Notes under the pieces: generated by a model | Seen by the model: only the letters and a program-made list of their open reading frames with translations | Databases searched by the model: none | What the model was told of the DNA's origin: nothing | Translations under genes and position numbers: made by a program | Shown here: positions 3,277 to 55,901 of the stretch, in pieces | Layout of the letters: each line of letters opens with the position of its first letter | Numbering within the stretch: position 1 is the first letter of the stretch | Origin: Globodera rostochiensis | Taxonomy: Eukaryota > Nematoda > Chromadorea > Rhabditida > Heteroderidae | Assembly (NCBI GenBank): GCA_018350325.1 | Contig: JAEVLN010000062.1 | Span: 1 to 64,000 of the forward strand | Direction: 5' to 3' | Length of the DNA: 64,000 nucleotides

Positions 3277-3745
3277 AGTAGTGAAAGCCCCCCCCCCCTC
3301 GCGGGAGTCCCATCCCATCGCGGGCCTATTGAGTACCATTGAGTCCCGTCCTCTCGCGGACCTATTGAAGGGTTTATTCCCGTTTCATCGTGAGCCTGTT
3401 GAATTGGTTTTTGAACCAAAGGGTTTGGGATAAGGGTTCGGGGGTAAACCCTTATCCCATCGTGGACCTTTTGAGTCCCGTACTCTAGAGGTCCCATCCC
3501 ATCGGTGACCTATTGAAAGGTCTATTCCCGTTTCATCGCGAACCTATTGAATTGGTTTTTGAACCAAAGGGTTTGGGATAAGGGTTTCGGTTAAACCCTT
3601 TCCTATCGTGAACCTATGGTAGGGTTTCGGGGTCGAACCAAAAAGGGCTCAGGGGTTTCAGGGTAAACCAAAAGGTTTTGGGATGGGTGGAGGGGAGGAG
3701 AGGGCTGGTGAACTTTGTACTTTGGTGTCCACCCCCGTCCAGTCG
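3277..3745 (+). repeat. Polinton left terminal inverted repeat
   Basis: Reverse complement of 26575-27032 with substitutions and small indels. It contains a C-tract, CTCGCGGGAGTCCC, and two internal copies of a segment including GAACCAAAGGGTTTGGGATA, so the repeat is itself internally repetitive. Confidence 0.88.
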
Positions 3746-4610: not shown

Positions 4611-6560
4611 ATGCCAGCAGCCGAACCAACAAAGAGGGCAAAGAAAAATCAGCGGAGACGAAGCAGAAAGCGAAAGCCCGACAGCAGTCGGGTGGAAAAT
4701 TTTTAAATTTTTAATAATAATAATTAAAAAAAAAAGTTTATAATTAATTTTTAATTTCATTGTACATTTGCAGATGTTTGTGAACCACGCACCAACAAGG
4801 CTGAGGAGGACAGTGAAGACGGAGAAAGCGGACAGAGGAGGCCATCAGCATCAGCAGCATCAAAACGAAGAAGTTGAAGCGGAAGGCGGCTGCCTGCCGG
4901 TTCATCAGTATGTTGTGCCGGAGAGCGACTACGACGACGAGATGGAGGAGGACGGAGGCCATCAGCATCAGCAGCATCAAAACGAAGAAGTTGAAGCGGA
5001 AGGCGGCTGCCTGCCGGTTCATCAGTATGTTGTGCCGGAGAGCGACTACGACGACGAGATGGAGGAGGACGGAGGCCAGCAGCAACTGCAAAACGGAGAA
5101 ATGGAAGATATGGGCGGCTGTCAGCCGCATGATCAGCACGGAGCGCCGGGTGGCGACAACGACGAACAAGTGAGGGGGGAGGAAGATGAAGTGGAAGAGC
5201 AGCAGCAGCAGCAGCATCATCCGGAGCAGAACGTGGCAACGACACAGCAACAGCCAAACAACAAGAAGAAGCCAGAAGAGAAGGAATATGAAATAAAGAA
5301 CGTCTATGCGGTGTATACCCACACCAACGAGCACCGTGCATACTTCATTGGATGGGCTGGTGTGTAAATTTTTTGATTTTTCTGGAGGGGTGGCTGGATG
5401 AATAAGAGGGGGGGGGTCTTACATTTGAAATGGAGTGGTCCGTCTCAACTCAAAAAAAAAAAAAACATTTCCTCCTAACATTCAGTATTCTCTCTCTCTT
5501 TCTATCTCTCTCTCTATCTTCTCTCTTTCTCTTTCTTCTCTCTCTCTTCTCTCGTTTACTTCTCACTCTTCCTGAACCGGAACGGCCGGGTTCTCTTGCG
5601 GCGCTGCAAGCTGAGCCCCTCTTCGTTCCGGGGAAGGTTGATTCACATCAAATCACTCTTCCTGAACCGGAACGGCCGGGTTCTCTTGCGGCGTTGCAAG
5701 TTGAGCCCCTCTCCGTTCCGGGGAAGGTTGATTCACATCAAATCACTCTTCCTGAACCGGAACGGCCGGGTTCTCTTGCGGCGTTGCAAGTTGAGCCCCT
5801 CTCCGTTCCGGGGAAGGTTGATTCACATCAAATCACTCTTCCTGAACCGGAACGGCCGGGTTCTCTTGCGGCGTTGCAAGTTGAGCCCCTCTCCGTTCCG
5901 GGGAAGGTTGATTCACATCAAATCACTCTTCCTGAACCGGAACGGCCGGGTTCTCTTGCGGCGTTGCAAGTTGAGCCCCTCTCCGTTCCGGGGAAGGTTG
6001 ATTCCCATCAAATCACTCTTCCTGAACCGGAACGGCCGGGTTCTCTTGCGGCGTTGCAAGTTGAGCCCCTCTCCGGGAAGGATTGAGATCACTTCAGCCC
6101 CTCTGTTTATCTTCTAACTCTTTCATCCGGTTTCAGCATATAGAGGGGTCCACGAATGGACCTTAAGCGAGGACATAAGCGGTGTGGAGATCGTAGCAGA
6201 TTTTACACGGTCGTCGACTATCGACGCAACTTTAAGCGCTGTCTTAGGCAATCCAGTGTCGCAAGACCTGCTTGACTCGCTCAACCAGAACAGTAAATTT
6301 GAAAAAGGTTTTTTTTTAGATTTTCTTTATTTTAAACATTTTTAAAAAATTTTTTTCAGTCCGCAGCCAAATGGATAAAGCGAAGGATGTAAGGTCGGCG
6401 GAGTTCAATATAACGTTCGCCCAGAATACGCCTGCGTACATTCGTCGTAAGGTAATGAAAACAAAAAAATCTTGTATTTTTTTTTTGCTTTTCAAATCTA
6501 CAATCATTTATATTCTAGGCTGAGAAGGAACTACAGGCCTTTGTGAGTATGTGTATGTGA
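4611..6560 (+). CDS. five-exon chromodomain protein (318 aa)
   Basis: Exons at 4611-4691, 4774-5359, 6137-6292, 6360-6451 and 6519-6560 join with consistent phases (0,1,1,0) and canonical GT/AG ends. The N-terminus is very basic (Lys/Arg-rich, nuclear-signal-like). Next comes an acidic, Gln/His-rich region with a perfect 39-residue tandem duplication (117 bp, from about 4839). A chromodomain follows at about residues 199-253, split by the intron after the FIGWA motif and completed by HEWTLSEDI and VEIVADF; the aromatic cage-type positions Y/W/W are present. Chromodomains bind methylated histone tails. This one is separate from the integrase chromodomain, so it may target the element to chromatin or interfere with silencing (inference). 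It lies within the Polinton ends. Confidence 0.78.
5562..6085. repeat. 90 bp intronic minisatellite
   Basis: Almost six copies of a 90 bp unit (CCTGAACCGGAACGGCCGGG is part of it) lie in intron 2 of the chromodomain gene, after a CT-rich tract. Copies are nearly identical, differing at one or two bases. Because 90 is divisible by three, all frames stay open, producing spurious long ORFs. The final unit is truncated. Confidence 0.93.
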
Positions 6561-9122: not shown

Positions 9123-9473
9123 TCACTCCTTCTTCTTCATTGGGGCAAGAATGTCGGTGGCCCTTGTGTTACTGATCACACAGTCGTTGCAGAGAATGAT
9201 CTTCACAGTCACTGAGTCCCCTTCGCGCACCGTTTTCTCCTCGTTGTGAAAAAGGGTGCTTTGACACTCCTTACAAAGATAGAAGGTCAACAGAAATTTG
9301 CCCTTCGTCAGCTTCCAGAGATGCTCACGCTTTTTGGCAGATGGTGGTGTTGGGTTTTGAACGTCTCCTTCTTCCTCTTCGTTAGCAGAACGTTTGGAGG
9401 GCAGCGATTGCTGTTGTTGCTGCTGAAACAGCTGGTAAACAGCTTCAAGTTGTTCAGCCGGAATTGAGTTCAT
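9123..9473 (-). CDS. small zinc-ribbon-like protein (116 aa)
   Basis: Intronless. The N-terminus has a Gln run and an acidic stretch followed by a basic patch (SAKKREHLWK). The C-terminal half has two Cys pairs about 32 residues apart (LCKECQ and LCNDC), the spacing of a zinc ribbon. It starts at an ATG about 50 bp after a TATA box and shares a ~200 bp divergent promoter region with the PAZ gene. I do not recognise a family. Possible roles include transcription factor or nucleic-acid binding (inference from zinc-ribbon layout only). Confidence 0.65.
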   Translation of the reverse strand: MNSIPAEQLEAVYQLFQQQQQQSLPSKRSANEEEEGDVQNPTPPSAKKREHLWKLTKGKFLLTFYLCKECQSTLFHNEEKTVREGDSVTVKIILCNDCVISNTRATDILAPMKKKE

Positions 9474-9523: not shown

Positions 9524-9531
9524 TATTTATA
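9524..9531 (-). promoter_or_regulatory. TATA box of zinc-ribbon gene
   Basis: TATAAATA, about 55 bp upstream of the minus-strand start. Confidence 0.6.
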
Positions 9532-9676: not shown

Positions 9677-10246
9677 ATGGTGCTTGTTAGTGTTTATTGC
9701 GCTCAACTTCTCAACATAAAAGTCCGATTGTTGCGCGAAAAGCTGACCCATCCCGCAGATCGAGAAGCAGTACTTCGTTTGTTGAAGGGAAAGCAAGTGA
9801 GGACAACCTACGCGGATAGGAACGGGTTCAAAAAAACGTTTTTCATTGACGGTCTGACAACAGACGGAGCAGCACACGTCATGGCCTATGGCCGTCTTCC
9901 CCGTCCTTATAACATAAATGTGGCTGCTCATTATTTTGCCCGTCATCGAATTCGTCTGCATAATCCGTACACGCAGTGCATTGTTGAACATCCGATCCGG
10001 GGAGAGGATAGGTTCTACCCAATGGAACTTCTTGAAATTGTTGACGACGCATCATTCATTACAGGACAAATTCAGGCAGGGCTGGGTCGTGTTTTCACAG
10101 AGATTAGAGACAGACACAGTTCATCCAAAACTGAGAGCTCCGAGGAATCTGATGATGATGAGACGCTGACCGGTTTTCAGACCTACACTGATGATTTTGC
10201 GTACACTGGGCGTGCATTGTGCAGTCAAGGCGCGCCTCGGTACTAA
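9677..10246 (+). CDS. stand-alone PAZ-domain protein (189 aa)
   Basis: I chose the ATG at 9677, four codons inside the longest frame, because it lies about 40 bp from the TATA box. Residues ~35-125 read as an Argonaute-type PAZ domain: LKGKQVRTTYADR opens the OB-like fold, then GLTTDGA, then the signature INVAAHYFARHRIRLHNPY and a closing DRFYPMELLEI, matching the family pattern V..YF...H...L.YP....(Y)LPLE. PAZ binds 3' ends of small RNAs. No MID, PIWI or N domain follows; instead there is an acidic Ser/Glu/Asp tail. The gene is intronless, unlike its neighbours. It could sequester host small RNAs or compete with host Argonautes (inference). The family call rests on motif reading only. Confidence 0.72.
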   Translation: MVLVSVYCAQLLNIKVRLLREKLTHPADREAVLRLLKGKQVRTTYADRNGFKKTFFIDGLTTDGAAHVMAYGRLPRPYNINVAAHYFARHRIRLHNPYTQCIVEHPIRGEDRFYPMELLEIVDDASFITGQIQAGLGRVFTEIRDRHSSSKTESSEESDDDETLTGFQTYTDDFAYTGRALCSQGAPRY

Positions 10247-10713: not shown

Positions 10714-13700
10714 TTATGTGGGGCGGGTATATCCAAAGTCAAGAATACGGTGATCGGGTCCAACAATTCCTTTTCCTACATACGGCTTATACACTTTGCA
10801 CGTCTTTTCTGATGTCACCTCACCCTTCTTGATGTTCGGCTTCAGGCTTCTCGTGAACACCGGGATCGGGTCTAGCTCTCCAGTTTCTGAGTAGTGCAGC
10901 ACGCGCTCCCGGAACGTCGTGTAGCACAAGTTCTGGTTGACCTTCACATCGTAGTTCAGTGTTATTCCTCTCAGCTTCAGCACGTGCTCCGTCTCTCCAT
11001 TGTCTTTACGCCGCAACTTCAGACCGTACTGTTTCTAAACATTCAAAGTTATTGAAGGGTCCATTTGTATGAAAATGTTTAAAAGATTACCGCTCCTCCA
11101 CAGCAGAATTCTTGAATCTCGTGCTGCGGGTATTCAGTCGGTCAGATCACCAAGGATGAGGACCGAGATCCAATGGATTTGAAGCCTCAGCGTGGCAGAA
11201 AATCACGCTGTCCGTGTCGGTGTACAGCAGGTCCGCACCCGAACGCACAATTTTCTGCATCAGCTTCAACAAGTACAGGCGGGCTGCACTTGTAGTCCAC
11301 AATGAGACGACTGAAAATAATTATTATTTAGTATTATTTTTGAGTTAAAATGTTAAATGTTTTACCAATGTTGGAGCAGCCGTGTTCTTCTATCCATTCC
11401 TTCTTTGTGGTGAAGCTGATCATCACTGTACTGTCGTTCAAGATATCCACGGAAGTGACCTCCTTTGATCGATCATCCAAATGTTCGGTGAGATCAACAG
11501 GGTCCGAGGTGACGAAAGTTTGGGTAAGTTCGTTCCTCATGGAGAAGCGCCCCCCTGAAAAAATTATAAATGTTTTGGTTAACTCTACAACCATAAAAAA
11601 CGAATACTTACAAAGGTTGTTGAGAGCCAGTTTGGCCAGCGATCTCTTCCCCTTGTTCGGCGCCATTTTCCGCTGATCAATCTGGATGCCGAAACGCTCA
11701 AAGCACTCGTTGACAAACCGCTGTTCAGCATCCTTGCACCCTTTGATCTCATCACTGAAGCCGCTGGCATGTATTTTCTGGGCCATGAACTCTGCAATGT
11801 ACGGCTGGAACAGCGTGTCGTCAGATTCTGCATACTCCAGCACGCGGTATAGCTTCGTCACACGGTAGCCCTCCTCCAGCGCTGCATCCAGTTCAATCGA
11901 AGTGCAGCTGCTCACCCACCCTCGCTCCTCATCATCATGCTCACAGCTGTATTCGCGCAGCACTCCGCCATTTGGAAACTCTCGTCTGAAAATGTTTCAT
12001 TGTTCCAAAATATAATAAAAAATATTAAAAAAAACTTACGCGCACGAATGGCAGATGCCGAAAATAAGCCGACCATCAACCCTCACCGGCAGAACGGGTA
12101 TGTCGATGGTGCGAGGTGGAATGATGAACACCTTGAGCAGAGCCATTTTGTATGGGTTGTGTTCCGGAAGAGTCCAGCTCACTGCCACGTTCAACACATG
12201 CACCTCCGGGTGGCCAACCGGGTATTTTGTTGTGGCACTAAATTTTGGCAATTAATTTGAATTTCAAACGGGGATAATCCTTACTTTATGAACGGGTACA
12301 AGGACGTCACATCGTAGTATGAAATTTTCTGGCCAGGCTGAACGGCGTGGAACATTTTGCGCGGGCCACAGCGTCCTCCCGTGAAGCACTCCCGGATGCT
12401 CAACGGCCCCTCGTCTCTGTACCGCTCGAACTTGCTGCGCATTTCCTTGTCCTTCTCCAGCTGCTTTCGGATGTCACACTCCCACACCACTTCAACCTCG
12501 GTGACCTGACTGCGGATGAAGGCCAGGCGAGCAGCATCCAGCTGGCGTGTCATTCCTGCTGTTTTTCCATTGGGTAGAAGTTGTTCGTCCAGAGGGAAAC
12601 ACCTTGAACAGCCGTGCCAAACACAGCCTAAAAATTTTTTAATTTACAAAAATTAATTACGTTCATCTATTTCTTACCGTTAACTTCAATCGCTAGGCCA
12701 AGGCTCTCAACCCAGCCATCAACTTGGTAGTTGGCGATCTTCTTCTCCTTTTCCGGGGAGTGCGCGCCTTGGACTTTGACTCCGTGCTTCTCGCTGTACC
12801 ACTGAAGGTATTTGAGTGCCAGCAAGCTTTGGTTGTCGGTGTTATCGTACCCCTTTTCAGGGACAATGGCGAGATGCTCTGCTTGCAGGTGGTTGGTTTT
12901 GAAGTGGCGCATGCAAGCAGCTGAAAAAAAAATTTGTATTTGAGTTGAAAAGTCAAATGAAAATTTTTATTGTGTACCTGCAATTGTCATTGCCTCCCTG
13001 AGCACATCAATTCCGTCGTGGATGTCCTGGCGTTTTGACACATCCATAAACTCGGTCCGGAACGCGACAAGGGCGCACATGAGGATTTCCACATCATTCT
13101 TACAGTAGGACGCCAGTGCCTCCTCAAGTCGGAACGGGTGCTGCTTGTTTTGGTCGTACCATTTGTCGAAATCGCTCCGTCTCGCCGGCATCATTCCGTT
13201 GGCCATGTAGTCGTTCTTTGAAGGCCAGACGTCCACGGCGTAGTTGTCAGGGCGGTTGACAAGATGGGGGAAGAACGGCTTCTCCACGACGTCCAGTCCG
13301 TATGCGGGCACCAGCGCAGACAGAGAGCACGGCATCAAGTTGTACGAGTCACGGAATATGACGGTCTGGGTTCCAGCCATGTTGTTTGTTCAGCTTCATT
13401 TCGTACAATTTGTTGCCTTTGCGGATCAGCTGCGGGCAAAGGCCACGACGAAACAGCTCCTTGAACACCAGCACCATGTCGAACCTTCCTCCGTAGTGGC
13501 TGAACGCTACGGTGTCGTACTCTACAGGCAGACTGTAGAGAATCCAGTCGATGAATTGCTCCAGAGGATCAGCTGTCACAATCTGCTTGTCCACTTTCGT
13601 ACTGCTGCTGAACGAGTGCTGGTTGAAGGTGATGGTTCTGCATGGACCGCACACAGCACATGGACTGGCCGCCAGACTCGAACGCCACTTTCCGGTGTCG

Positions 13701-15288
13701 ATGCACTCAGGGCAAGCAATTTTGGCCGCTACGAAGTTCACCTGGTGGATCATTTTCTGCATTTCCGCTGCCGCTTCAGGATTCAGCGGAACATGCTGCA
13801 TTGTCTCCACGTCGAAGCTCACGATACGATACGGCTTTGCAGTTTTCGGCTCAAGCGGGTGAATGAAGCATCCTCTGGCCTTTGAATGGAAGCCCCAACA
13901 TGTGTAGCAATAGCGCTCGTCGCATTTGTGCCCCTAAAACAATTACTTCATTTTAAGTTTTTATGTCAGAATTAAAACACAGTTACCGTTCTGCCTCGTG
14001 CAGTGTTAAGCTTCACGTCCCAAATCACACCGCATTCCAGACATTTTTTTGAACGTGAACAGAAATTGGATTGAAGGTGCTGCTGAAAACAGTTGTTGTT
14101 GTTGAAAGTCTTTTTGCAACCAGTGCAAAGCTCTTTGAATCCTCCATCGGCCATGCACGGGTACGCCAGTCCAACTCTACCGCACTGAATACACCGCGCC
14201 TTGCAAGACTTTGAGTGCGTTGCAGCTTTGTCATAGGGAACTTCGCACGAAAGACAGTAGGGTTTTCCAAACAATCGGCCAAACCGTTTCACAGCATCGA
14301 AGTGCTCGTTGTTGAAATACAGCCGCAAGGCCATGTTGTAGTTGTCTGGACCGTACTTGAAGAGTGGTTTGTATCGTCCGCCCTCTCCGAAGATGAACAC
14401 TTTGATGGAGTGCTCGTTCACATACTGCTCATTGTTCCAATAGTCGACAACACGAGGAACCCATGTAGCAGCCTCGTAGCCATTTTGGAACAGCGGGGCA
14501 CCAACACACCGCATCAGTTTCTCCGTGTCCTGTTCAAACTGCTCGGCTGAACCATAGCGACCGTTGATGTAGTTATAGAATTTCCACGGCGCCCAGTTGC
14601 TGATGTGGTGCATCAATGCCGCAATGAGTGCGTAGAACAGGCAATGATTGTTCTTGTTGTGGATCTTTTAAAAAACATTTTATCATTTGAAATGTTTTTA
14701 TTTTAATCGATTTAGGTTTAACTCACCTTTATCAGAGCGTGTTCGCTGATTTGATGTTGAACAGCGCGGGGTGGACGGCGTGCACCTCCCTTGAGCGTCC
14801 GTGATTCCGGAAGTCCTTTGCGGCTCACAGTGGTGACTTTGACGGTGAATGGTGCTCCCAACAATGACACGCTTTTCTTGCTCTGCACCACGCTCAAGAA
14901 CCGATTGAGGATGACGTCCACAATGTTGTCATTGATTTCACGGATGGGTGTCCACACATCGGTGTCGAGATGCTCACTGCTGATCAAGCACCCGAGACGG
15001 TCCGGTTCATGACCGTACTGACGACTCTCCTCCAGTGCATCGTCAACGCATTTCTGAAAAACACCGGCCAACAAAGCTTCCGGATCGGCAGGCAAATCTT
15101 CGATTTGAAACTTTGACTTCACCTTGACCACATTGAACTTTGCCGAGTGCTCAATGTCCTCCTCCAACTTCCGCACATAGTCCCTCGGGAGTTTTCTCTG
15201 TAGGATTGCCGTTGCCTATTTGAAGTTCGTCGCCGAGCAGTTCTTCGATGGTGAAACGTGCTCGCTTTCGGGGTGGTGGACCGTCCAT
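10714..15288 (-). pseudogene. polB: protein-primed DNA polymerase B, ten exons, frameshifted
   Basis: Exons: 14727-15288, 13987-14664, 12978-13933, 12678-12920, 12285-12627, 12040-12237, 11612-11985, 11366-11554, 11091-11310, 10714-11034. Introns are canonical and phases fit. Visible domains: Cys-rich N-terminal region, exonuclease motifs (SFDVETM; SHYGGRFD), the GGR motif, polymerase A (DVTSLYP), B (KMAPNKGKRSLAKLALNNL) and C (YTDTDS), then a C-terminal KLRGITLN segment. This is the Polinton replicase. Four single-base frame gains are needed: one near 15215 (exon 1), one near 13375 (exon 3, exonuclease domain) and two in exon 9 near 11150, just after motif C. Exon lengths independently give the same excess (+1, +1, +2). 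It is either inactivated or hit by sequencing indels; the other core genes are clean. Confidence 0.88.
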
Positions 15289-15731: not shown

Positions 15732-16187
15732 TCAATTTTTCACCAATTTATTCACCATTTTTGTTACAAATAAATCTGTGTAAATATGTGAATCAAGAAC
15801 ACTGAGGAACTGATCGTACGTAAAGCCGAGAGAGAGAAAATAAATAAAACAAATGCAATAATGACCACATGTTTTTGTTAAAGGGGACTGATAGGATTTC
15901 TGATTTTTGTGCACAAGTGGAAAGCTGTTGAGAAATTGGTCTATTTGGGGTACAATAGGGAGAGCTAAACTGTCAAAGTAATTGATCATCTTAGGACCAT
16001 TCACAAAAATTGCAATCCAATGAGAGCCTTTCATTCCTTCGGGGTCCAAGTTGACAATGAGCGCTGACGGAGTTTTGTGCTGTAGAGCCTGGGGACTCGG
16101 CATTCTGTCACATGGATAGCACCCGTGGAACACGCGTCCCGTCAGGCGATTTGCTTCCAAAATTTGGGAAATTTGGCTGCTGTCCAT
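15732..16187 (-). CDS. adenain-like cysteine protease (151 aa)
   Basis: The adenovirus-protease/Ulp1 fold is indicated by the order His56 (SHWIAI), Asp72 (YFDSLA), Gln100 (SYQSP) and Cys107 (TCGHYC), the usual catalytic set of Polinton maturation proteases. Length is at the short end for the family, though the frame extends 28 residues upstream without another good start. I chose the internal ATG at 16187. The first 80 nt overlap the 3' end of the signal-peptide/membrane gene in another frame. It probably cleaves capsid precursors during assembly, as adenain does (family knowledge). Confidence 0.88.
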   Translation of the reverse strand: MDSSQISQILEANRLTGRVFHGCYPCDRMPSPQALQHKTPSALIVNLDPEGMKGSHWIAIFVNGPKMINYFDSLALPIVPQIDQFLNSFPLVHKNQKSYQSPLTKTCGHYCICFIYFLSLGFTYDQFLSVLDSHIYTDLFVTKMVNKLVKN

Positions 16188-16689
16188 TCCCGAACAGTAG
16201 AGGCGGAGGTGGTGACGGGGGTCCAAATTGCGATGCTGGAACACCGTAGATAAGGCTTGGTACACTTTCACGTTTTGACGGGGAAGGAGATTGAGAAGAA
16301 TTTTGGGTTTGTCGCCGTTGTTTTATCCAGAGGATGGAACGAAGTTGGTAAATGATGAGTGAAAGCATCATCATCGCGTACAGCGCGAACAATGCGTAGC
16401 AGAAAATGTGTCCCAGGTAATTGTCATCTGCCGGTCTGTCCTTGCACGGCTGTAACCCTGAGAAAAGTCCAAATGAAGGGTATTGCTGGGGTTGAATTTG
16501 TTTGGATGTTTTAGGCTTACCTGTTACGGGTGTAGTCGTTGTTTTTGGAGAAGTGGAAGTAGGTGTCGGGAAACCCTGCCGCCGCCGCCACTCTTTATAC
16601 TCGGGAAGGTCTTCAATTTTCACACCCTCCTCAACAATCATCGCGGCCACTGTGTGCAACAGAAGAACAACGAAAATAATTGATCGCAT
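16108..16689 (-). CDS. signal-peptide, single-pass membrane protein (193 aa)
   Basis: Residues 1-16 form a clear signal peptide (MRSIIFVVLLLHTVAA). A short Thr/Pro-rich ectodomain follows, then a membrane span at about 94-115 (CYALFALYAMMMLSLIIY) and a Pro/Ser-rich cytosolic tail that overlaps the protease start. Within the ectodomain, a 63 nt stretch (16457-16520 region) begins GTAAGC and ends TTTTCTCAG, is divisible by three, and could be a retained or optional intron. Not recognised. It is too small and lacks the domains for the gB-like fusogen reported in some nematode Mavericks. It could be a virion or cell-surface protein (inference). Confidence 0.7.
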   Translation of the reverse strand: MRSIIFVVLLLHTVAAMIVEEGVKIEDLPEYKEWRRRQGFPTPTSTSPKTTTTPVTGKPKTSKQIQPQQYPSFGLFSGLQPCKDRPADDNYLGHIFCYALFALYAMMMLSLIIYQLRSILWIKQRRQTQNSSQSPSPSKRESVPSLIYGVPASQFGPPSPPPPLLFGNGQQPNFPNFGSKSPDGTRVPRVLSM

Positions 16690-16766: not shown

Positions 16767-18089
16767 TCAAATGGTTGTATCTGTGGAAATTGTTCTGTTT
16801 TTATCCAGCATCACCAGCGCATCGCATTCACCCATCACAACAAGCATGATCCCGCCCACGGGCACACTCTGGCTGAACTTGACGCTCACCGCTGTTGTCC
16901 CGTTCTTGATCAGATCAAAAAGGCCCGCCTGGTCATCACCGCTGCTGGTCATGTTGAACACGTACATACAATGTGTCTTACCATATTGTTTAAACGTTAT
17001 ACCGTTGCTCTCCGTCGTATTGCAGAATCCCACTGCCTCGTTCATGTCGTTGAATGCACGCACGTATTTTCCCTTGGAATAATCCAGATCGTAGGGAGCC
17101 TGGGGATACGACCTCCCGTTAGCAATGATTGAGATTTCACGCACATTAAACGGTTGAAAGTTGAACGGACTGCGCTTTGCGTCTCCCACATAGTCTGAGT
17201 TGGAAACCAGACCCATGATTATACGTCGAGGAATCTGGTCCATGAAGAGGTTGGCGGTAAACTCGAATCGCCCTTGGCTGATGAACAGCGACTTCATCAT
17301 CGTCTTTCGCACAGCATAACGTGCTGGTTTTACCTCCAACTTCCGGGCAATGTCCAACGCTAGTCCGTCCATCAGAGACACTTTTTTCACGTACATTTTA
17401 AGTCCAACAACCTCAAAGTGATAGCGTGGAGCAGTCGCTCCAGCGCTGGGTGCTACGATCAAAAAGTTGCTGTCATTGGGCAGAATTTCAACGTCCAATT
17501 CACAAAAATTAATTAGATAGAGTGGCTGGTTGAACAGGTCAGCGTCAATTTTGGCAATGAATTGTGCGGTTTTACTGCCTGCAAACAGATCCCTTCTAGC
17601 TGCACATCCATCTCCCTGTTCGAGAGTTTCATCCTTGTCCCCATAGTAGCCCGCAGCGTTTAGGTGTGAGTCCTTTGCAGTCGACGAATAGGAGAGTTCA
17701 TGTGAAAAGTACGTTTTGTAGGCCATCAGAGAATTTGTGTTGAAAATTTCACGACCATTAATGCTCATGCGGATGTTGCGGATGAATGTCTGTCCAATCA
17801 TTTGAATTGGACATACCAAATTGTCTGAAGCGTCCAAGTTAACCAGTAGACCGCTTGCGTTCTCCTTGCGGATTCGAAACTCCGTGAACAGGTAACACTT
17901 TGAGAGATCGATGAAATTTTGGCTTGAATGCAGCTTGAAGTGGTAGGGGGTGTCTGTCAACGGGTTGCTAGGCAACAACTCAAACACTTTTGAAGATGAT
18001 ACACTCACATTTGTCGGTGGGACGTGAAAGAAATCCAAGGCGTTGGTTATTGAGTTGACGCTGTCGTTATCAATTTTGTGAAAAGCCAT
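16767..18089 (-). CDS. major capsid-like protein, F54H12.2 family (440 aa)
   Basis: The sequence matches the pattern of the C. elegans F54H12.2-type family encoded by metazoan Polintons. It has an opening FFHVPPTNVSV, IDLSKCYLFTEFRI, a conserved FIRNIRMSINGREIF block, QGRFEFTANLFMDQIPRRI, FNFQPFNVREISIIANG, and a C-terminal PVGGIMLVVMG block. Members are thought to form the double jelly-roll major capsid (family knowledge; I cannot run a fold search). The ORF is intact and starts two bases from the stop of the preceding 173-aa gene. Its own TATA box lies inside that upstream gene. It is the strongest structural gene of the element. Confidence 0.8.
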   Translation of the reverse strand: MAFHKIDNDSVNSITNALDFFHVPPTNVSVSSSKVFELLPSNPLTDTPYHFKLHSSQNFIDLSKCYLFTEFRIRKENASGLLVNLDASDNLVCPIQMIGQTFIRNIRMSINGREIFNTNSLMAYKTYFSHELSYSSTAKDSHLNAAGYYGDKDETLEQGDGCAARRDLFAGSKTAQFIAKIDADLFNQPLYLINFCELDVEILPNDSNFLIVAPSAGATAPRYHFEVVGLKMYVKKVSLMDGLALDIARKLEVKPARYAVRKTMMKSLFISQGRFEFTANLFMDQIPRRIIMGLVSNSDYVGDAKRSPFNFQPFNVREISIIANGRSYPQAPYDLDYSKGKYVRAFNDMNEAVGFCNTTESNGITFKQYGKTHCMYVFNMTSSGDDQAGLFDLIKNGTTAVSVKFSQSVPVGGIMLVVMGECDALVMLDKNRTISTDTTI

Positions 18090-20423: not shown

Positions 20424-20431
20424 CTTTTATA
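20424..20431 (-). promoter_or_regulatory. TATA box overlapping integrase stop codon
   Basis: TATAAAAG on the minus strand. The TAA at 20427-20429 is both the last codon of the integrase and the core of this TATA box. Confidence 0.55.
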
Positions 20432-21626
20432 CAAGCTGTGACTCTTGAATCCATTCCCTCTCCGGATACCCCGCAAACTTTACGAGAATTTCTGTAGAAC
20501 CGTCTGCTCTCTTTCGCTTTCGGTACACCTTCTCGATGCGGTAACTGGTCTCTGCGTCCTTTCTTACACGAGCCAGCTCGTGCTCGTAGAAAGTACCTTT
20601 GAATTTCTCGCCTCGTTCGTCTCGAAGCTTGTACCGTACTGGGCGAACCCCTTCCAACACCGCGTCAATTGTCAAAATTTCGTCACCGTAGTTTGGCAAG
20701 TACCCCTTCTCGAACTGACCTTTCTCACGACTCATTCGCACAAATTCATCCTTGCGGAAGCGAGGTCGTCGTCGTCGTCGTTGTTGTTTATCACCACCAT
20801 CATCATCAGTGCCATAAATGCGCAACCAAACTTGCTGCGCATTTTTGAAATTCACGTCAACCGGACGCATTCCGTGCACACGCGACACGGACTTGTTGAT
20901 TCCGTCAATAATTTTCTGCACCACATCCACCCAGTTGAGCGTTTCCTTTTGTGCAAAATACCTGTACAGTCGCTGTTTCACATTCCTAATTGCCCGTTCT
21001 GCTACGGACGCTTTCACTGATGAGTGGACAGGTTCGTGCTTTGCAATGTCCTGCTGTTCAAAAAACTCCTTCAGCAGCCGATTCCGAAACTCGGTTCCCT
21101 TGTCTGAAAAGATACGATGCGGTGCCATGGGCATCTGTTCAATGAGCTGTTTGAACGCCTGAAGCATATCTTCTGCACGTTTGGTGAGCAGCGGTACAAC
21201 AAACAGCCGCTTGGAGAGTACGTCTACGGCCACAAGCAGGTAGCGATATCCTCTGTTGTGACGTGAGAGCGTCTGCAGGTCTGCCAAATCTACTTGGACA
21301 TCGGTCATGAACCCTGCAGCAACAGTTTTTGCCCTGGGAAAGCGTACGCGCCGTGGGCGAAGCAGGGTGTACGTACGATGACCTTCCAAATAGTTTTGCA
21401 CATCTTTTTTGCTGATATTAATTTTGTTTCTGTTCAATTTTTTGCGTGCCTCCCTCTGTAGACCTTCAACACCTGCAAAGGCGGACGGTGATGACAGGTC
21501 GTTGTAGAGAGGGTCAAGCGCTGCCTTAATCAATTCCACTTTTGGGGACGGAAGCGTCGTCCTGTTGCCGACGCTGATGCTTCCTTGGTGGCCGTCTCCC
21601 GCCTCCTTCTCGTTGGAGCTGTCCAT
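20427..21626 (-). CDS. int: Polinton integrase, DDE core plus chromodomain (399 aa)
   Basis: Retroviral-type integrase. After an N-terminal region with the Polinton-typical LYNDLSSPSAFAG motif and an HTH-like segment, the rve core carries catalytic D113 (VQVDLADL), D175 (SDKGTEF) and E210 (SVAERAIRN), a D-D-35-E spacing. A C-terminal SH3-like strand region follows, and a chromodomain closes the protein (YRIEKVYRKRK ... VKFAGYPEREW). It integrates the element, producing 6 bp target duplications, with chromatin targeting by the chromodomain (family knowledge). The 5' end overlaps the preceding 432-aa gene by 97 nt in another frame. The ORF is complete with all three catalytic residues. Confidence 0.95.
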   Translation of the reverse strand: MDSSNEKEAGDGHQGSISVGNRTTLPSPKVELIKAALDPLYNDLSSPSAFAGVEGLQREARKKLNRNKINISKKDVQNYLEGHRTYTLLRPRRVRFPRAKTVAAGFMTDVQVDLADLQTLSRHNRGYRYLLVAVDVLSKRLFVVPLLTKRAEDMLQAFKQLIEQMPMAPHRIFSDKGTEFRNRLLKEFFEQQDIAKHEPVHSSVKASVAERAIRNVKQRLYRYFAQKETLNWVDVVQKIIDGINKSVSRVHGMRPVDVNFKNAQQVWLRIYGTDDDGGDKQQRRRRRPRFRKDEFVRMSREKGQFEKGYLPNYGDEILTIDAVLEGVRPVRYKLRDERGEKFKGTFYEHELARVRKDAETSYRIEKVYRKRKRADGSTEILVKFAGYPEREWIQESQLV

Positions 21627-22828
21627 GAATACAAAATTGGGTCTGTCTTTAGTTTTGTTTCCAAGAGACTAGTACCTGGTGGTCCTCTGGCATGAATGCT
21701 GTGTAGGCCGGCTCTCTTCTCGATTATATATTTTATGGATTGTCGAAGATTGCTGCGCAAAATTCTACGATTGCTATTAGTATTAACGATCGTGTTAGCG
21801 TTGACGCCAAGGCGCTTAGGGTGGCGATTACAGATGGTGTAAATGCGCTCAATCTGTTGATCCATTGTCAGATCTTGCGGTGGAATTGAAAACAGCTCAA
21901 CTTCGTGCGCCTCCTGCCTACTTCTCATTTTTGGTCCTGATAGATAGGCTTCCAATTTCCGTTTTCTACTAGGTGCCGGTTTTTTCTTTTTTCTCGCCGG
22001 TTGATCATCGTCTTCATTGGTCCCTGCTTTTCTTTTGGTGGCGATTCTTCGTTCATTGTACCCTTCCATTGGCCAGGTGTCATCATCACTGTCAGGGAGA
22101 ATTAACTCGTCCGAGTTGACTGAAGGAACTGAAAGAGTCGACCCGTCTTCAAGCAGGTAAACATCGTCGTCAAAATCGTACGGTAGTGGCGCAGCAGCTG
22201 CCTCAGCGACCAAATCTCGTTCTGGTTCATTTCGTGTGGGTTGTTTCAATGCCGCGCGTTTTCTGCTGACTCGTTGTTGAAAGCGACGGGCTGCCTCCTT
22301 ATGGAGAGGTGGAGGTTCGAGAGTGTCTGCAGTAATGAGATTTCTTTTGACTTCTGTAGGGTCGGGCGCTCTGAATTTAGTAGTTTTACGCTTTATACTC
22401 TGCCGAGGGGGAGGTGAAACGGGTCTCCTGCTTTGCGGGATTTGTGCAATACGACTTGGACCTTGTGCAGGAGGCTGTGGCGTGTTCACACCACTTCTCT
22501 GGGTTTGTGGTATACTGTGTTGTCTTTGTGCAGGAGGATGTGGAATGTCCACAACCTCTGCTTCTTCTTCTCCGCCACGCTTTACCAGCAAACTTAGTCC
22601 CTTTGATAATGCCACCTTTGTCGGCTTGCTTTCATATTCCTTTCTCATATGCAAGTAGCGTCTGAGTTGCTGATTGTACCGTACATTTTTTGCTGACGGA
22701 TTTGCTCTTTCGCTTCTTGCACGCTGAAGCTCATGGCGCACCGCATCAAGGTTAATGTCACCCGTATCCGAAACAGCTGTGAGCCCTCGATAAATTTCTT
22801 CCGGAACAATGAGAAATTTGTTTGCCAT
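21530..22828 (-). CDS. unrecognised Polinton protein, VPE-type N-terminus (432 aa)
   Basis: Function unknown. It starts with an ANKFLIVPEEIYRGL motif, then a helical region, a long disordered Pro/Arg/Lys-rich middle with acidic patches, and a more ordered C-terminus (about 310-405) ending in basic residues and FRPQKWN. The intact genes at 54945-55808 and 56841-57704 have the same architecture (ANKMTMVPEAEYHALL ... KPTLW) and the same upstream neighbour, so this is a conserved gene of the virus-like lineage. Position between the hydrophobic-tail protein and the integrase suggests a virion or DNA-associated role (inference). The TATA box overlaps the stop codon of the preceding gene. Confidence 0.7.
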   Translation of the reverse strand: MANKFLIVPEEIYRGLTAVSDTGDINLDAVRHELQRARSERANPSAKNVRYNQQLRRYLHMRKEYESKPTKVALSKGLSLLVKRGGEEEAEVVDIPHPPAQRQHSIPQTQRSGVNTPQPPAQGPSRIAQIPQSRRPVSPPPRQSIKRKTTKFRAPDPTEVKRNLITADTLEPPPLHKEAARRFQQRVSRKRAALKQPTRNEPERDLVAEAAAAPLPYDFDDDVYLLEDGSTLSVPSVNSDELILPDSDDDTWPMEGYNERRIATKRKAGTNEDDDQPARKKKKPAPSRKRKLEAYLSGPKMRSRQEAHEVELFSIPPQDLTMDQQIERIYTICNRHPKRLGVNANTIVNTNSNRRILRSNLRQSIKYIIEKRAGLHSIHARGPPGTSLLETKLKTDPILYSWTAPTRRRRETATKEASASATGRRFRPQKWN

Positions 22829-22880: not shown

Positions 22881-23283
22881 CTTTTCCTGTTGAGGAAATT
22901 GCCGAGCTCACCAGAGATGTCAAGATAGGTGTTAGAAGAGCTGCAAACAATCCCGGTAATCCGGCGCCTTTTTGAACAATGACACGCTTTGCACCTCGTT
23001 CACTTCTTGCCCTACTCATACGGCGTACAAAATCAGCGTACGGCATTAGGCGCTTTTTCTGACGGGTTGTTAGAGTGAAGCGTGTAGCCACAATGTTTAA
23101 GCAGATCTCGACCAATGATAACAGCTGCTCGGCATTTGCATTCCGCAACATCTTCGTACGCTTCTTTGCAGACCTTGTCCTTGCAAGTCCGCACAGAAAT
23201 TTGGAGTTTTCACAAACCAGCGAACTGATTTTCGTTGATGACGATGATGATGATGAAAATTGTTTTTTACAGGTGTCCTCCAT
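22876..23283 (-). CDS. small protein with Gly/hydrophobic tail, pX-like (135 aa)
   Basis: I chose the ATG at 23283, which overlaps the last codons of the ATPase gene, rather than the longer open frame. Order: Ser run, a basic region, a conserved block (LLSLVEICLNIVATRFTLTT then RQKKRLM), a basic RSERGAK stretch, and a Gly-containing hydrophobic tail (GLPGLFAALLTPILTSL). This arrangement recurs in metazoan Polintons and in the frameshifted copies at 54602 and 58048 here. It resembles small basic core or membrane-active virion proteins (inference). Confidence 0.7.
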   Translation of the reverse strand: MEDTCKKQFSSSSSSSTKISSLVCENSKFLCGLARTRSAKKRTKMLRNANAEQLLSLVEICLNIVATRFTLTTRQKKRLMPYADFVRRMSRARSERGAKRVIVQKGAGLPGLFAALLTPILTSLVSSAISSTGKE

Positions 23284-23935
23284 TTTTAGGAATGAAAATA
23301 ACGCGCTGATCGTCTTCTTTAAATATGCCAGTGCGCAGGCGTAACACCGGGTCTGAAGACGCACTCATGTCAATTACCAGGTATCCGTAAGGCTGACTGG
23401 TCGCTTGACGATATGCGTCAAGGAAGAAGTCGAGTTGCCTTGGGAAGAGTTGTACACCAAGATTGCGTACAGCAAGCACAGAGTTCGGTGAGCGCATCAG
23501 CACCACATACTGCGCATTTTGACGAGCGACCTTGATTTTCCGTTCAAACAAATTCTGTGTCACAAAAACAATCGCAAAGTTTTGGTGATGAGATTTTTTG
23601 GTGAACAATTCTGACAGGTATTTTTCGTCGATGGACATCAGCAGATCATCGAGGATAAGGAGAAGAGGTTTTGTCTGCCTACGAATCAGTTCTTCCGGAG
23701 GAACACCAGCATACACGGATATTCCGGCCTTCTGTAGAACCGGCACAATGGTGCTCATCTCGCCGAAGCAATAGAGAATTGACGCAGGAGTGGGGTCGAT
23801 AAGCTCTCTGTACTCTGCCACAAGGTTGAGCAAAAAGGTACTTTTTCCTGACAATGAGGGACCCGAGATGATCATACCAAAGGGTAGTTTGAATTTTAGA
23901 TCTTGATCGGAGAAAGACGAAGTGTTACTAATCAT
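23267..23935 (-). CDS. genome-packaging ATPase, FtsK/HerA (A32-like) type (222 aa)
   Basis: Walker A GPSLSGKST at residues 25-33, Walker B LLLILDD ending at D96-D97, and a downstream FVTQNLF sensor-type Gln motif place it with the A32/HerA packaging ATPases of Polintons and large DNA viruses. It would drive DNA translocation into capsids (family knowledge). Length is normal for the compact Polinton form. The stop overlaps the start of the next gene by 17 nt, indicating a compact gene arrangement. Confidence 0.93.
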   Translation of the reverse strand: MISNTSSFSDQDLKFKLPFGMIISGPSLSGKSTFLLNLVAEYRELIDPTPASILYCFGEMSTIVPVLQKAGISVYAGVPPEELIRRQTKPLLLILDDLLMSIDEKYLSELFTKKSHHQNFAIVFVTQNLFERKIKVARQNAQYVVLMRSPNSVLAVRNLGVQLFPRQLDFFLDAYRQATSQPYGYLVIDMSASSDPVLRLRTGIFKEDDQRVIFIPKNGGHL

Positions 23936-24009: not shown

Positions 24010-24936
24010 TTACAAAGATGTGCGCAAATTGATATTTTGAGGCTGCTCAATGGTTTTCACCGCTGCTTCCTCTTCCTCCTCCGCTTCTACGCTGGGCTTT
24101 CTCTTTTCCAGTTTCTTTTTCTTCGTCACCTTTGGCTCAGCCGTTTGTGGTGACGCTGCTTGAGTCTGAGAAGGAAGAAAAGTGGTAGCCGCTGACATTG
24201 CATCCACAAAGCCTTGCATCTCAACCTGCTGCTGTGGTTGTTGTTCGATATGTTGTTGCGGTTGTTGCGAAGGTAGGAGCGTGGCTGCTGCAGACATTGT
24301 GTTGACCAGTTCATCGAGTTGCTGCGCCGTAAAAGTGGTCCCCGCTACCTGTTGCTGCTGTTGTTCAGCTGGAAGGAATGTGGAAACATCCATTAAAGTG
24401 TTTCCAAAGTCCTGAAGCTGTTGCTGCTGCTGCTGCTGCTGCTGTCGGTGATCCGCTTCTTGTGCAGGGTGTGCGGGTGCCAATGTAATATTTAGGGGTG
24501 AGGGTGAATTATCCACCAGCATGGACTGCTGCTCCACACTCTTGGGCTCAGGCGGTACAGCAAGCTGTACTGCAACAGGTGAGCAAACCGTCGGGGCGTG
24601 CTGTGCTTGAACATGCTCCACATCAAACGCCCTCCCCTTGTTCTTGATTTTGAAGAAGGTGTGCCCCGGAAGATCGTAGACAAAGTCGAATGGCACAAAT
24701 GCTGGTCCGTTGATGCGCGAGCACCAAACGGTCACACCTTCCTTTGTCACCATGTAATCCATGTCCCCCTCCGTAGACTTACAGTGACGACATTTTCCGG
24801 GAATGTCAAATGGGATGACCCTCGGGGTTGATAGGCGTTCGCTGGCCACCGTTATAGAGTTGGATGTGATAGAAAAGTTAACGCTGGGTATGATCGAGTC
24901 AAAGAGGGAACGCTTGTCGTTAATATTAAAAGCCAT
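24010..24936 (-). CDS. polyQ protein with Cys-rich N-terminal domain (308 aa)
   Basis: I chose the ATG at 24936, 16 codons inside the frame, because it follows a TATA box by about 55 bp. The N-terminal ~110 residues look folded, with a KCRHCKS pair and a later single Cys (VWCSR) that could bind zinc. The remainder is low complexity: several Gln-rich tracts with repeated LP(S/A)(Q/E)QQ and MSAAT(T/L)LPSQ modules, then a Lys/Glu-rich end. No family recognised. It lies directly upstream of the ATPase on the same strand. Confidence 0.65.
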   Translation of the reverse strand: MAFNINDKRSLFDSIIPSVNFSITSNSITVASERLSTPRVIPFDIPGKCRHCKSTEGDMDYMVTKEGVTVWCSRINGPAFVPFDFVYDLPGHTFFKIKNKGRAFDVEHVQAQHAPTVCSPVAVQLAVPPEPKSVEQQSMLVDNSPSPLNITLAPAHPAQEADHRQQQQQQQQQLQDFGNTLMDVSTFLPAEQQQQQVAGTTFTAQQLDELVNTMSAAATLLPSQQPQQHIEQQPQQQVEMQGFVDAMSAATTFLPSQTQAASPQTAEPKVTKKKKLEKRKPSVEAEEEEEAAVKTIEQPQNINLRTSL

Positions 24937-24990
24937 TTGTGTATATTTTTTAAGTAAAATAATAAATGGTGAAACGGTTAACAATTACCA

Positions 24991-26574: not shown

Positions 26575-27032
26575 AGGTCCGCGATGGGATGGGGATGAAC
26601 AGCAAAGTACAAAGTTCACTACCCCTCTCCTCCCCTCCCCATCCCTCCACCCAAAACCTTTTGGATGGTTTACCCCGAAACCCCTTGAACCTTTCTCCCG
26701 AAACCTTCACGAAGGGATAATGGTTTACTCCCGAACCCTTATCCCAGAGGGCTTAACCCGAAACCCTTACCACAAACCCTTTGGTTCAAAAACCAATTCA
26801 ACAGGTTCGCGATGAAATGGGAATAGACCCTTCACAGGTCAACGATGGGATGGGACTCAATGGTACTCATAAGGCCCACGATGGGATGAGGGTTCACCCC
26901 CGAACCCTTATCCCAAACCCTTTGGTTCAAAAACCAACTCAATAGGTCCGCGAGAGGACGGGACTCAATGGGACTCAATAGGCCCGCGATGGGACGGGAC
27001 TCCCGCGAGGGGGGGGGGTGGCTTTCACTACT
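26575..27032 (-). repeat. Polinton right terminal inverted repeat
   Basis: Inverted counterpart of 3277-3745, ending GGCTTTCACTACT. The next base begins GPCR exon sequence. Confidence 0.88.
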
Positions 27033-27908
27033 TGCGTAACATAAAAATTCGCCACAATATATTATAAAGGCGGAAATATTAGTGAAATTTTGATTTTCGG
27101 GTTGTTGGTTGGGGTCGCCAAGTATGCACATCACTGGCCTAATAAATTATTTTTAAATTAATTTTTGCAAAAATCCTAACTTTTCCCAATTCGATGAGCT
27201 TCCAATATAGGCGCTGAGCCCATTTATTATTGACCTGATGCAACAAATGCTAATGGAAAATTTAAAAGTGACGTATTTTCCATTTGCTTTATACCTTAAA
27301 CATATTTAATTTACAATTAATAATAGCTTTATCACCATATTGGAAAGATAACTCTGATCAGACGGTCGAGTCCAATGCATATCTGAAGCGTCAAAGCAAT
27401 TGCTGTGCCAATTAGGGGAACAATTTGAATATAAAAGCACGCCCGCAGTGTGATGTAATTAAATCCAAACACAAAAATGACAAATTTGACGCAATTTCCA
27501 AAAAGGAGAAATGAGGCAAAAAATGCATACAAAGCGATCAGAATCATGCAAGGCGAATGGAGTGATCTGATCGGATAAGCGTTAACACTTTTTGCAATTC
27601 TGATCGAAATACGCCAGAAAATTTCAAACTTTGGCATTTTGTTTTTCATAAACACTTCGGTTCTAATAAGGGCATTTCCAAAGCCTTGCTGGCTTAGACT
27701 CGAATTTTTTTTTACTTTGTTTTAATGGTCACATAGACGAGAGACGAGTTTAGGCCAATTCCGACACAACAAATCATAGCAACGATTCCGTTTGTAATAA
27801 TTTCAATGGGAACAAAACCTTTGTTCTTGTAAAGATCGTAAAGCTTAAAAATAGAAATTTCAATTAATTAAACAAATAATAATTAACCGGATCAACGGAT
27901 GATGCCAT
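27033..27908 (-). pseudogene. GPCR gene truncated by the Polinton (copy 1)
   Basis: Corresponds to exons 1-5 of the intact receptor genes downstream: start at 27908, the 128 nt and 231 nt exons, the TM4 exon, and part of exon 5. Exon 5 is cut after the codons for FLCYA, exactly where the Polinton terminus begins, so TM5 (part), TM6 and TM7 are lost. The DRLIGV motif after TM3 reads DRLIRV here. The missing 3' exons are not on the other side of the Polinton. Confidence 0.85.
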
Positions 27909-29698: not shown

Positions 29699-30378
29699 CA
29701 GGGATGGGCGGAATTCCGATTTCCGACATTTTTGGGGTGGAATTCCGAGTTCCGATTTCCGAAATTTGGAGCAAAAAGTCGGAAATTTTCGGAAAAATCG
29801 ATATTTTTTGGACCAAATCTCTTAACAAATTTAGCTAAAAAGTTCAAAATTTCTCCCGGCGGCGCCTATCGGCACTGCCGGGCCCCCGCAGCTCCCTAGT
29901 GCGTTTGGTCCGGGATTAACCTCAATAAAAATTAAACCCCTAAAAGTGAATTTTGAGCGAGATTTACATTGATGGTGGTTTAGTGGTGAGTGGTTGGGAG
30001 TTGAGTTATAGGTTTGGTTCAGATCTCTGATGTGTAAATGATTTTCCCGATCTGTTAACATCTATATGCTGATTTGTGATGGAACAATTTTTAAAACTTT
30101 TTAAATTTGTCCCAATTAAAAAGCTTTTGATGACAATTTTGAAATTTAACTTTTTTTTAGCACGATTTACAAAAATTATTTTGTTGAGCGGGAAGAGGGA
30201 GGTATCGGCGGTGCCGATAGGCGCCGCCGAGAAAATTTTTTGAAAATAGGCCAATTTTGTTAAAAAATTTTTTCCGATTTCCGACTTTTTTGGGGTCGGA
30301 ATTCCGATTTCCGAAATTTTTTTAGGCCTCGGTATTCCGATTTCCGAAATTTTCTGAGGCCGTCGGCGCCCATCCCTG
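29699..30378. mobile_element. hAT-like non-autonomous element (680 bp), copy 1
   Basis: Ends CAGGGATGGGCG / CGCCCATCCCTG are inverted repeats, and ACACAAAC flanks both sides as a perfect 8 bp target duplication (29691-29698, 30379-30386), as in hAT transposons. The interior is built from CGGAATTCCGATTTCCGA repeats and two oppositely oriented GC-rich hairpins. No transposase. Confidence 0.88.
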
Positions 30379-30540
30379 ACACAAACCACCAGTGCGCAGA
30401 TAACCCCGACTTTTTTAGAGACATTTTAACTCGCGGATCTTGAATTCATTCAAAAGGCACTTTAGTGCACTCGCGACAAAAACCAGTTTTAAAAAGCAAT
30501 GTTTGAATTCACAGGTAAATTAGTTTTTAATAATTATAAA

Positions 30541-30622
30541 TTAATTGTTCAAATATTGGACAGCTGTAAATTGTTGTTCTTGATGACCGAATTGTGTGCG
30601 AAATGCTTTGTGATATTGGCCG
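30541..30622 (-). CDS. duplicate (alternative) last exon of GPCR
   Basis: About 130 bp beyond the normal stop, a second exon starts after TTTGAG in the same phase and encodes GQYHKAFRTQFGHQEQQ... before its own stop. It is clearly paralogous to the regular last exon (AQYRSAFRTLFGHQ). It is present in each unit (also near 35360-35441 and 40181-40262) and could give an alternative cytosolic tail. Confidence 0.6.
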
Positions 30623-30753
30623 CTCAAATTAGGCATAAATAAATTTAAATTTAAATTCAATATTTATATTCATGATCAGTGGGTAAAAAGACCAATAGAA
30701 ATGCATTTTAATAACCAATCGCGTCTTTAAATAAATATCCATGCTTTTGATTG

Positions 30754-32105: not shown

Positions 32106-33410
32106 TGTAATTGAGATTTATTATGCTTAATGTATAATCTAAATAAACTTTCCAAACAAATAAGGATTTTGAATTAATGGCTACATTTTTACTATTATTT
32201 GTTTGCCCTTGACAAACACGCCTACACAGTTGCTATGTCAGAATCATTTGCTTTATTAGACTATAATTAAATAAACCTTTAATTAGTGCTATGATGAAAA
32301 ACATATTTTTCTGAATGCTCTAATTTAAATTGTTTATCCGTTGAATAAATTGAATCATTAAATTTGTTTCAAAATTCTAGTCCGGGTGTATTACCCGGAT
32401 TATCCGGCTCCCGATTCGGTCCGATTTCTTGAATCCGGACGGCTGCCAGTAGATGGGGCGGAGACCCCGGGCTACGAAAGAAATCCGCGCCGCGATCCGG
32501 CTTAGGGTCTCGCGTGCGCTCGCGCCGCGGGTTGCCGCCAGAGCGTTGCATTCTTCGCAACGCCAGTTGTGTGTTGGGTTCAAACCCGCTTGAGTGCAAG
32601 CATTTATTTATCGTTTTGCCTAAAGATTTTTTTACCTTTTATCGAAAATTTTGATGATATTTCTTAACAAAAATGCCAAAATAATTTTCAGACGGCGCCT
32701 GTCGGCACCGTCGGGCTCCCTTTCCCAGAAAAATTTCAGATGTTCTTCAGAAAGGTTTCGCGCCAGCAAATCTTGCACAATTTGTTTCCTCACCTTAATT
32801 TGAATATGACTAAATTTACTATTGCGCAAATTTGAGTTAGAGATTTATTTTAAAAAATTGAATATCCAAAATTTTCTTTTTAAAATTGCGGAAATTGCTT
32901 CTTCCTCCGCCCTCCGACTCGCCCCGCTACTTGCTCCGTCATCGCATGCTCGCTGTTGCAGGCTGTCAGCGGACTTTCATTATTATATCCCGGTTTTTGT
33001 TAACGTTTTTTGCTTATTTTCAAAAATTTGAACCGATTTTCAATTCACAATTTTTGATTTTCTATTGACGAATTCGCAATCACTGCATCCAATAACAAAT
33101 TTTCAGATAACTTTTTAAATAAACTATTTTCAAGCAATTTTGACCAGATCTATTAAGTTTAGAAAGGTGTCGAACAGTATATAATATGTGTGATTCCAAA
33201 TCCAAATATTCATTTTAAAATCGATTTAGGCATAGATTGTATGAAAAGTAGTGCACCTAAAAAATTCAGCAATGTGATATATTTTAAAAACATTTTAGTT
33301 TTGTACCAATTTTCTTAACAAACAGTACCAGAATTCTGCTTTCTGGTTTTTAAAAAGGCGACCAGAGCACATCCCTGATGGGCAATGGACGACGTCTACA
33401 AAAGGTTACC
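32106..33410. other. GPCR upstream region and SINE-like/hairpin segments
   Basis: AT-rich 5' flank of the receptor gene, then a GC-rich stretch (32400-32600) ending in a tRNA B-box-like GGGTTCAAACCC near 32577, then a GC-rich hairpin at 32691-32715. No protein gene supported. The same holds in units 3 and 4. Confidence 0.5.
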
Positions 33411-55808: not shown

Positions 55809-55901
55809 ATAAGATGTTTTAAAAAAGTTTAATATAATTTTGAATCTCCAACTTATAGCAGTTGCAAGGACTTTTAATTAGAGAAATTATAAACCCTGGA
55901 G

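Follow-up and report, generated by a model that had tools for sequence, protein, structure and literature searches.

In the genome of the cyst nematode Globodera rostochiensis, a gene encoding an isolated PAZ domain, with no other part of Argonaute, is regularly retained in the capsid-bearing Polintons, and findings in Heterodera support the same conclusion there. The gene that led to this observation lies in a window of 64,000 nucleotides (contig JAEVLN010000062.1, positions 1 to 64,000) and proved to be one member of a large family spread over many Polintons of the genome, which went beyond the original prediction made from the window alone. We propose, with a probability of roughly 0.4, that a PAZ domain of host Argonaute origin has long been a core gene of tylenchid Polintons, that its product serves as a decoy capping the 3' ends of host small RNAs, and that it would be the first PAZ protein known in any virus or virus-like element. 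The gene and its immediate surroundings were organized as follows.

9677–10246, plus strand: PAZ-only gene, a single 189-aa ORF from ATG to TAA, with a profile match and a modelled fold
9764–10051, plus strand: PF02170 PAZ match, residues 30–125
9677–10051, plus strand: PAZ fold modelled by structure prediction, residues 1–125
10052–10243, plus strand: acidic, serine-rich tail with low pLDDT
9630–9635, plus strand: TATAAA of the PAZ gene, 47 bases 5' of the ATG
9526–9531, minus strand: TATAAA of the divergent 116-aa ORF, from the sequence
9123–9473, minus strand: divergent 116-aa ORF with two CxxC pairs, zinc-ribbon-like by eye

The original prediction had read the 189-aa product as an isolated PAZ domain and had called for a profile search and a structure prediction, both of which gave PAZ. 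The PF02170 match reached 31.8 bits (E 1.5e-7), compared to the curated Pfam gathering cut-off of 28.8, and the structure model and structure searches bore out the fold independently of this match. A chance match was rejected on these two grounds. A single-sequence search of the PDB with the window protein returned no PAZ structure. No other Pfam family was found in the ORF up to E 10, and the protein therefore contains neither MID nor PIWI, as had been proposed. With PAZ as the only Pfam match, the PIWI domain that would mark an Argonaute was absent, as were the RNase III domains that accompany PAZ in Dicer. By profile and model, the product of the window gene is a PAZ domain of the Argonaute type, complete and standing alone, followed by an acidic tail predicted to be flexible. 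The pLDDT was below 50 from residue 126 nearly to the C-terminus, and the net charge of the tail was −7 against +8 for residues 1–122, in agreement with the acidic tail noticed earlier. The absence of an intron from the single open ORF and the presence of an upstream TATAAA at position 9630 also agreed with the first reading; a TATA box was present at −47 to −52 in five of the ten PAZ copies checked. The divergent 116-aa ORF had eight matches in the genome, at seven places, and because each of them adjoined a PAZ gene, the two genes may work as a pair. Compared with the PAZ domain of eukaryotic Argonautes (human Ago1 and Ago2, Drosophila Ago1 and Ago2; PF02170), the Polinton protein is devoid of the N, MID and PIWI domains, possesses two extra residues in the loop following the TTY strand, carries an acidic tail and is encoded by a virus-like element.

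The element around the PAZ gene is a Polinton, bounded by inverted repeats whose outer limits are 3277 and 27032 and with Polinton genes between them, so the location first proposed for the gene was correct. At the element ends as placed, no matching 6-bp target duplication was seen by eye.

3277–3598, no strand: left terminal inverted repeat region, outer end AGTAGTGAAAGCC
11334–11963, minus strand: PolB piece matching DNA_pol_B_2 (E 6.1e-6, 25.8 bits, at the cut-off)
12967–13380, minus strand: PolB piece matching DNA_pol_B_2 (E 6.5e-11, 42.2 against 25.8 bits)
13349–13822, minus strand: PolB exonuclease-region piece, the polymerase (POL) marker, without a Pfam match of its own over the cut-off
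15732–16271, minus strand: adenovirus-type C5/C48 protease, slightly below both Pfam cut-offs
16767–18089, minus strand: double-jelly-roll major capsid protein, 440 aa
18687–20360, minus strand: 557-aa ORF in the capsid cluster, without Pfam match
20427–21626, minus strand: rve integrase (33.5 against 32.6 bits), with a weak C-terminal chromodomain match
21530–22828, minus strand: basic protein
23267–23935, minus strand: A32/IVa2-type packaging ATPase (Pox_A32, 27.8 against 22.8 bits)
24010–24984, minus strand: Polinton ORF with no assigned role
26748–27032, no strand: right terminal inverted repeat region, from the sequence

The polymerase is a putative protein-primed family B enzyme, in which DNA_pol_B_2 matched in two pieces and the priming itself is predicted. 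By eye, the piece at 13349–13822 resembled a segment of the run-on protein P0163, the one ahead of its Pfam match to PolB. In the window, PolB is split over several ORFs at 11334–15176; in two other copies, the frame at the marker is open over 1441 and 1509 aa. The protease ORF scored 21.1 bits for Peptidase_C5 (cut-off 21.3) and 20.6 bits for Peptidase_C48 (cut-off 20.7). The terminal inverted repeats, the rve integrase, PolB, the candidate C5-type protease, the A32-type ATPase and the double-jelly-roll capsid are those of an animal Polinton/Maverick; the elements described here have in addition a retained PAZ gene, of which no mention was recognized for animal Polintons/Mavericks in the papers searched. 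The left part of the element also contains a tandem array at 5563–6075 (90-bp unit, 5.7 copies, 99% match, open in two frames). Directly beyond the right end, a Srsx chemoreceptor match was observed at 27332–27655. Beside the element, at 30006–40029, ORFs of 127, 107, 127, 107 and 128 aa with a spacing of about 4.8 kb suggest large tandem repeats, and two 338-aa ORFs on opposite strands at 54792–57857 suggest an inverted duplication.

The window protein (P0001) had 34 matches in the genome, ten of which covered at least 161 of the 189 residues in a stop-free frame; these counts, like the others from the genome searches, are lower bounds. Integrase (INT), capsid (MCP) and polymerase (POL) markers were mapped across the genome, and 28 of the 34 matches were located within 20 kb of a Polinton marker, a situation shared by 3.9% of the genome. 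The idea that the PAZ gene was a cargo unique to the window copy was rejected, as many Polintons of the genome have it. Three arrangements were observed around the gene. In the first one, that of the window, POL was located at about +3.6 kb, MCP at +7.5 kb and INT at +11 kb, all opposite to PAZ. The second had INT at about −5.3 kb and MCP at −2.2 kb on the same strand as PAZ, with POL at about +2.7 kb on the opposite one, and the third had INT at about +3.2 kb on the same strand as PAZ, with MCP at −4.3 kb and POL at +7.5 kb opposite. Some PAZ places fitted none of the three, and the first-subfamily locus C18:677313 was found in the second arrangement. Representatives of the second and third subfamilies were 27–28% identical to the window protein. 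The PAZ cut-off was reached by L019 in the second subfamily and, for the third, by its Heterodera relatives P0036 and P0037. L037, also of the second subfamily, is a 117-aa PAZ ORF without the acidic tail as read and scored 28.4 against 28.8 bits; L020, of the third, scored 11.4, with an apparent intron retained in its sequence. No PAZ match was found in Pfam for L016, a divergent member of the first subfamily.

The retention of the gene was evaluated with 71 of 106 integrase rows, 53 of 95 capsid rows (merged to 52 places) and 49 of 66 polymerase rows; most of the rows left out were additional fragments of copies already represented and weak integrase rows of retroelement-like character. At all 37 capsid places having an integrase match within 15 kb, a PAZ gene was present within 15 kb. 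Within 20 kb, PAZ was found at 43 of the 71 integrase, 38 of the 52 capsid and 35 of the 49 polymerase places. None of the 14 capsid places without PAZ had an integrase match within 20 kb, and these may be remnants. No PAZ was found within 20 kb of the other 28 integrase places, several of which had uninterrupted frames of 361–371 aa; a single one had a capsid match within 20 kb. A polymerase match was present within 15 kb of 39 integrase places, 34 with PAZ and five without (C67:2686955, C14:446559, C67:949017, C14:1137975 and C67:4333113). These five also had no capsid match within 20 kb, and perhaps represent another Polinton lineage. More generally, the integrase places without PAZ may belong to other element lineages, or their PAZ and capsid genes may have diverged past detection. 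Since 28 of the 71 places are in this situation, some integrase-bearing elements lack PAZ or possess an undetectably diverged one, and the term core gene therefore applies to elements with this type of capsid, not to all integrase-bearing elements.

Combining the matches of the window protein with searches by subfamily and by Pfam gave 63 distinct PAZ loci, of which 43 were near Polinton markers, 11 near PIWI and nine near neither. Among the loci near neither, the one on C26 is separated from a contig end by about 2.5 kb, and an ORF adjoining C45:3419475 resembles the Polinton ATPase by eye. L009 (C17:991629), whose 170-aa PAZ-only ORF is intact, is a solo copy: no marker was found within 20 kb of it, nor any PIWI match within 6 kb. 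L028 (C5:2617651), a PAZ exon, had neither a Polinton marker nor a PIWI match in its vicinity; it may be an Argonaute that has diverged, or an ancient copy that was domesticated. In a tree of PAZ pieces from the elements and from the host, the element sequences grouped together with weak support, and L028 formed, again with weak support, a long branch inside them, with the second PAZ subfamily. At this support, no donor Argonaute could be named from the tree.

The dN/dS ratio was calculated by the Nei–Gojobori method with our own script. For the PAZ part, it was 0.10–0.13 in eight of 45 first-subfamily pairs, those with a dS of 0.67–1.2, many of the other pairs being saturated at silent sites, and 0.04–0.22 over 15 second-subfamily pairs. 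The L001–L002 value of 0.49 derives from five changes only, and the L004–L005 value takes in an upstream extension of the frame. The PAZ gene is thus under purifying selection. Where values could be obtained for the tail as well as for the PAZ part, the tail was the less constrained of the two in most pairs.

Two homologue searches gave 32 and 63 matches. The homologues with a named source came only from Globodera, Heterodera schachtii, H. trifolii, Meloidogyne enterolobii and M. incognita, in addition to metagenome proteins. In H. trifolii, the PAZ gene niasHT_003309 and the capsid gene niasHT_003308 were taken as neighbours because their contigs share the same size (478126 nt), and likewise niasHT_025073 and niasHT_025072 (288134 nt). 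The H. trifolii gene model P0034 runs PAZ into a homologue of 21530–22828 (E 1e-11), and the G. rostochiensis model P0035 runs it into a homologue of 24010–24984 (E 4e-20). The search of other nematode Polintons suggested at the outset was therefore positive for H. trifolii, where PAZ is found beside Polinton genes, and for Meloidogyne reached the occurrence of both PAZ and capsid homologues. The corresponding entries in Globodera, Heterodera and Meloidogyne, called "PAZ domain-containing protein", are homologues of the window gene; they were named automatically by domain, so homologous proteins were already on record, under names that, as listed, mention neither Polintons nor a function. Some Polinton capsid homologues (P0098, P0141 and similar) are named "Major sperm protein" or "Galectin" in UniRef, apparently wrongly. 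No relative of the PAZ protein was found in IMG/VR scans with two alignments or in a scan of prokaryote genomes, and PHROGs and PADLOC gave no match to it.

The original prediction had considered that the ORF might be an exon of a host Argonaute gene misassembled into the element. None of the 43 Polinton-linked PAZ loci had a PIWI match (PF02171) within 6 kb and none of the 11 PIWI-linked loci had Polinton markers, so this origin is refuted, short of an artefact affecting the whole assembly. The family profile does score the PAZ exons of host Argonautes as well (28.8 bits at best), but intact single ORFs in many copies, purifying selection and the proximity of Polinton genes in H. trifolii leave a misplaced exon, or a hitchhiking gene fragment, with practically no likelihood.

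The residues forming the 3'-end pocket of human Ago2 were mapped onto 33 homologues by sequence-profile alignment, and not by coordinates. In this profile, R315, H316, H271, R277, Y279 and Y338 were kept or conservatively replaced: R315 and H316 corresponded to R89 and H90 (kept in 30 and 31 of the 33), H271 to Y45 (33), R277 to K53 (Lys or Arg in 32), Y279 to F55 (32) and Y338 to Phe or Tyr (28). Two positions were altered, Y311 to His in 27 and K335 to Glu in 31. According to an excerpt of PMC5896489, the contacts with the 3' overhang include H271, R315, H316, Y311, K335 and Y338, and an excerpt of PMC5389725 describes PAZ-domain mutations made at H271, R277, Y311 and H316. In the tail, R-x-x-[CL]-[STN]-Q was present in 25 of 33 homologues and a terminal Trp in 21, the window copy ending with Tyr and having no Trp in its tail; the tail was acidic in all 12 homologues measured. 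The conserved segment or the terminal Trp is possibly a short binding motif.

The most likely action of the PAZ protein, to which we give even odds, is to antagonize host small-RNA silencing by holding small RNA. The protein would be made from its own promoter, and its conserved pocket would bind host small RNAs, or the duplexes that precede them, at their 3' ends. Without MID and PIWI it could not hand them on and, one step further, silencing of the element would be weakened; more speculatively, the tail might add contacts to Argonaute or other silencing partners. Viral silencing suppressors that sequester small RNAs include p19 and B2, and the known ones use, to our knowledge, folds unrelated to PAZ. 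If this function is right, the Polinton protein would resemble them as a small virus-encoded protein tying up small RNAs, and would differ in using the host's own PAZ domain. Such a decoy is plausible because the pocket is conserved, though Y311 and K335 are changed. Isolated PAZ domains have been solved with RNA, judging from structure titles, and the rest of Argonaute would therefore be dispensable for binding. Polintons/Mavericks are described as piRNA targets in molluscs and cichlids in excerpts of PMC6128900 and PMC11753138, and plant-parasitic nematodes are reported, in an excerpt of PMC5934874, to have AGO and WAGO Argonautes and no PRG-1. Besides the two pocket changes, several observations speak against silencing antagonism: the tail-less subfamily of the L037 type, the lack of a Pfam PAZ match in L016 and the integrase places without PAZ. 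The acidic tail could also compete with RNA.

Retention in capsid-bearing elements fits a role in replication or packaging as well as counter-defence. The PAZ protein may thus serve the life cycle of the element itself, binding free DNA or RNA 3' ends during protein-primed replication, transcription or packaging, with no action against the host. We consider this, the main alternative, unlikely, at about a quarter of the weight, which it owes to the presence of the gene at every capsid-plus-integrase place, as expected of a core virion or replication gene. The integrase places without PAZ are also mostly devoid of a capsid match, PAZ adjoins PolB in convergent orientation in window-type elements, and binding by PAZ extends beyond RNA ends, an isolated domain having been solved with a duplex carrying a deoxynucleotide overhang (title of 1si2). 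However, the pocket resembles that of the RNA-binding Argonaute PAZ, and the gene order around PAZ varies between element types, unlike a fixed replication module. Furthermore, related viruses do without such a protein, judging from a fold search of the BFVD viral proteins with the PAZ model, in which nothing matched at E 0.001.

Silencing might also be antagonized without any holding of RNA, if the PAZ surface or the tail takes up proteins that would otherwise partner Argonaute or Dicer. GW/WG hooks occur in viral suppressors, and by analogy a tail with R-x-x-C-S-Q and a terminal Trp might act like an Argonaute-hook peptide. The frequency of these tail features and the acidity of the tails argue for such a role, and the altered pocket positions could mean weak RNA binding. 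It appears improbable given the Tyr end and Trp-free tail of the window copy, the subfamily without a tail in the ORF as read, the otherwise conserved RNA pocket and the lower constraint on the tail in most pairs. Still less credible is a use of PAZ by the element to steer or stabilize host small RNAs so that its competitors, related elements or viruses, are silenced. An antiviral role after recruitment by the host has been proposed for Polintons (excerpt of PMC6361761), but nothing in the protein would allow it to load or slice a target.

The original prediction knew of no PAZ gene in Polintons, and no paper describing one was recognized among the literature matches listed; Jeong 2023, reportedly a survey of nematode Polinton polymerases, was outside this scope and could mention the gene. 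The word PAZ is absent from the main texts of PMC11071296 and PMC11071308, and in excerpts of PMC6361761, PMC7845603, PMC11753138 and PMC6128900, PAZ designates Argonaute's own domain and not a Polinton gene. As far as the literature was searched, the place of the PAZ genes in Polintons and their retention are new.

Returning to the holding of small RNA as the preferred action, the presence of an isolated PAZ domain at each of the 37 capsid-plus-integrase places, and in element types with varied gene orders, points to counter-silencing and to a molecule that can be tested. Polintons multiply in genomes policed by small RNAs. If true, this would be a new route of RNA-silencing suppression, in which the guide-binding domain of the host is turned into a decoy. 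Even with another function, one would not have expected PAZ to belong to the regular gene set of a virus-like lineage.
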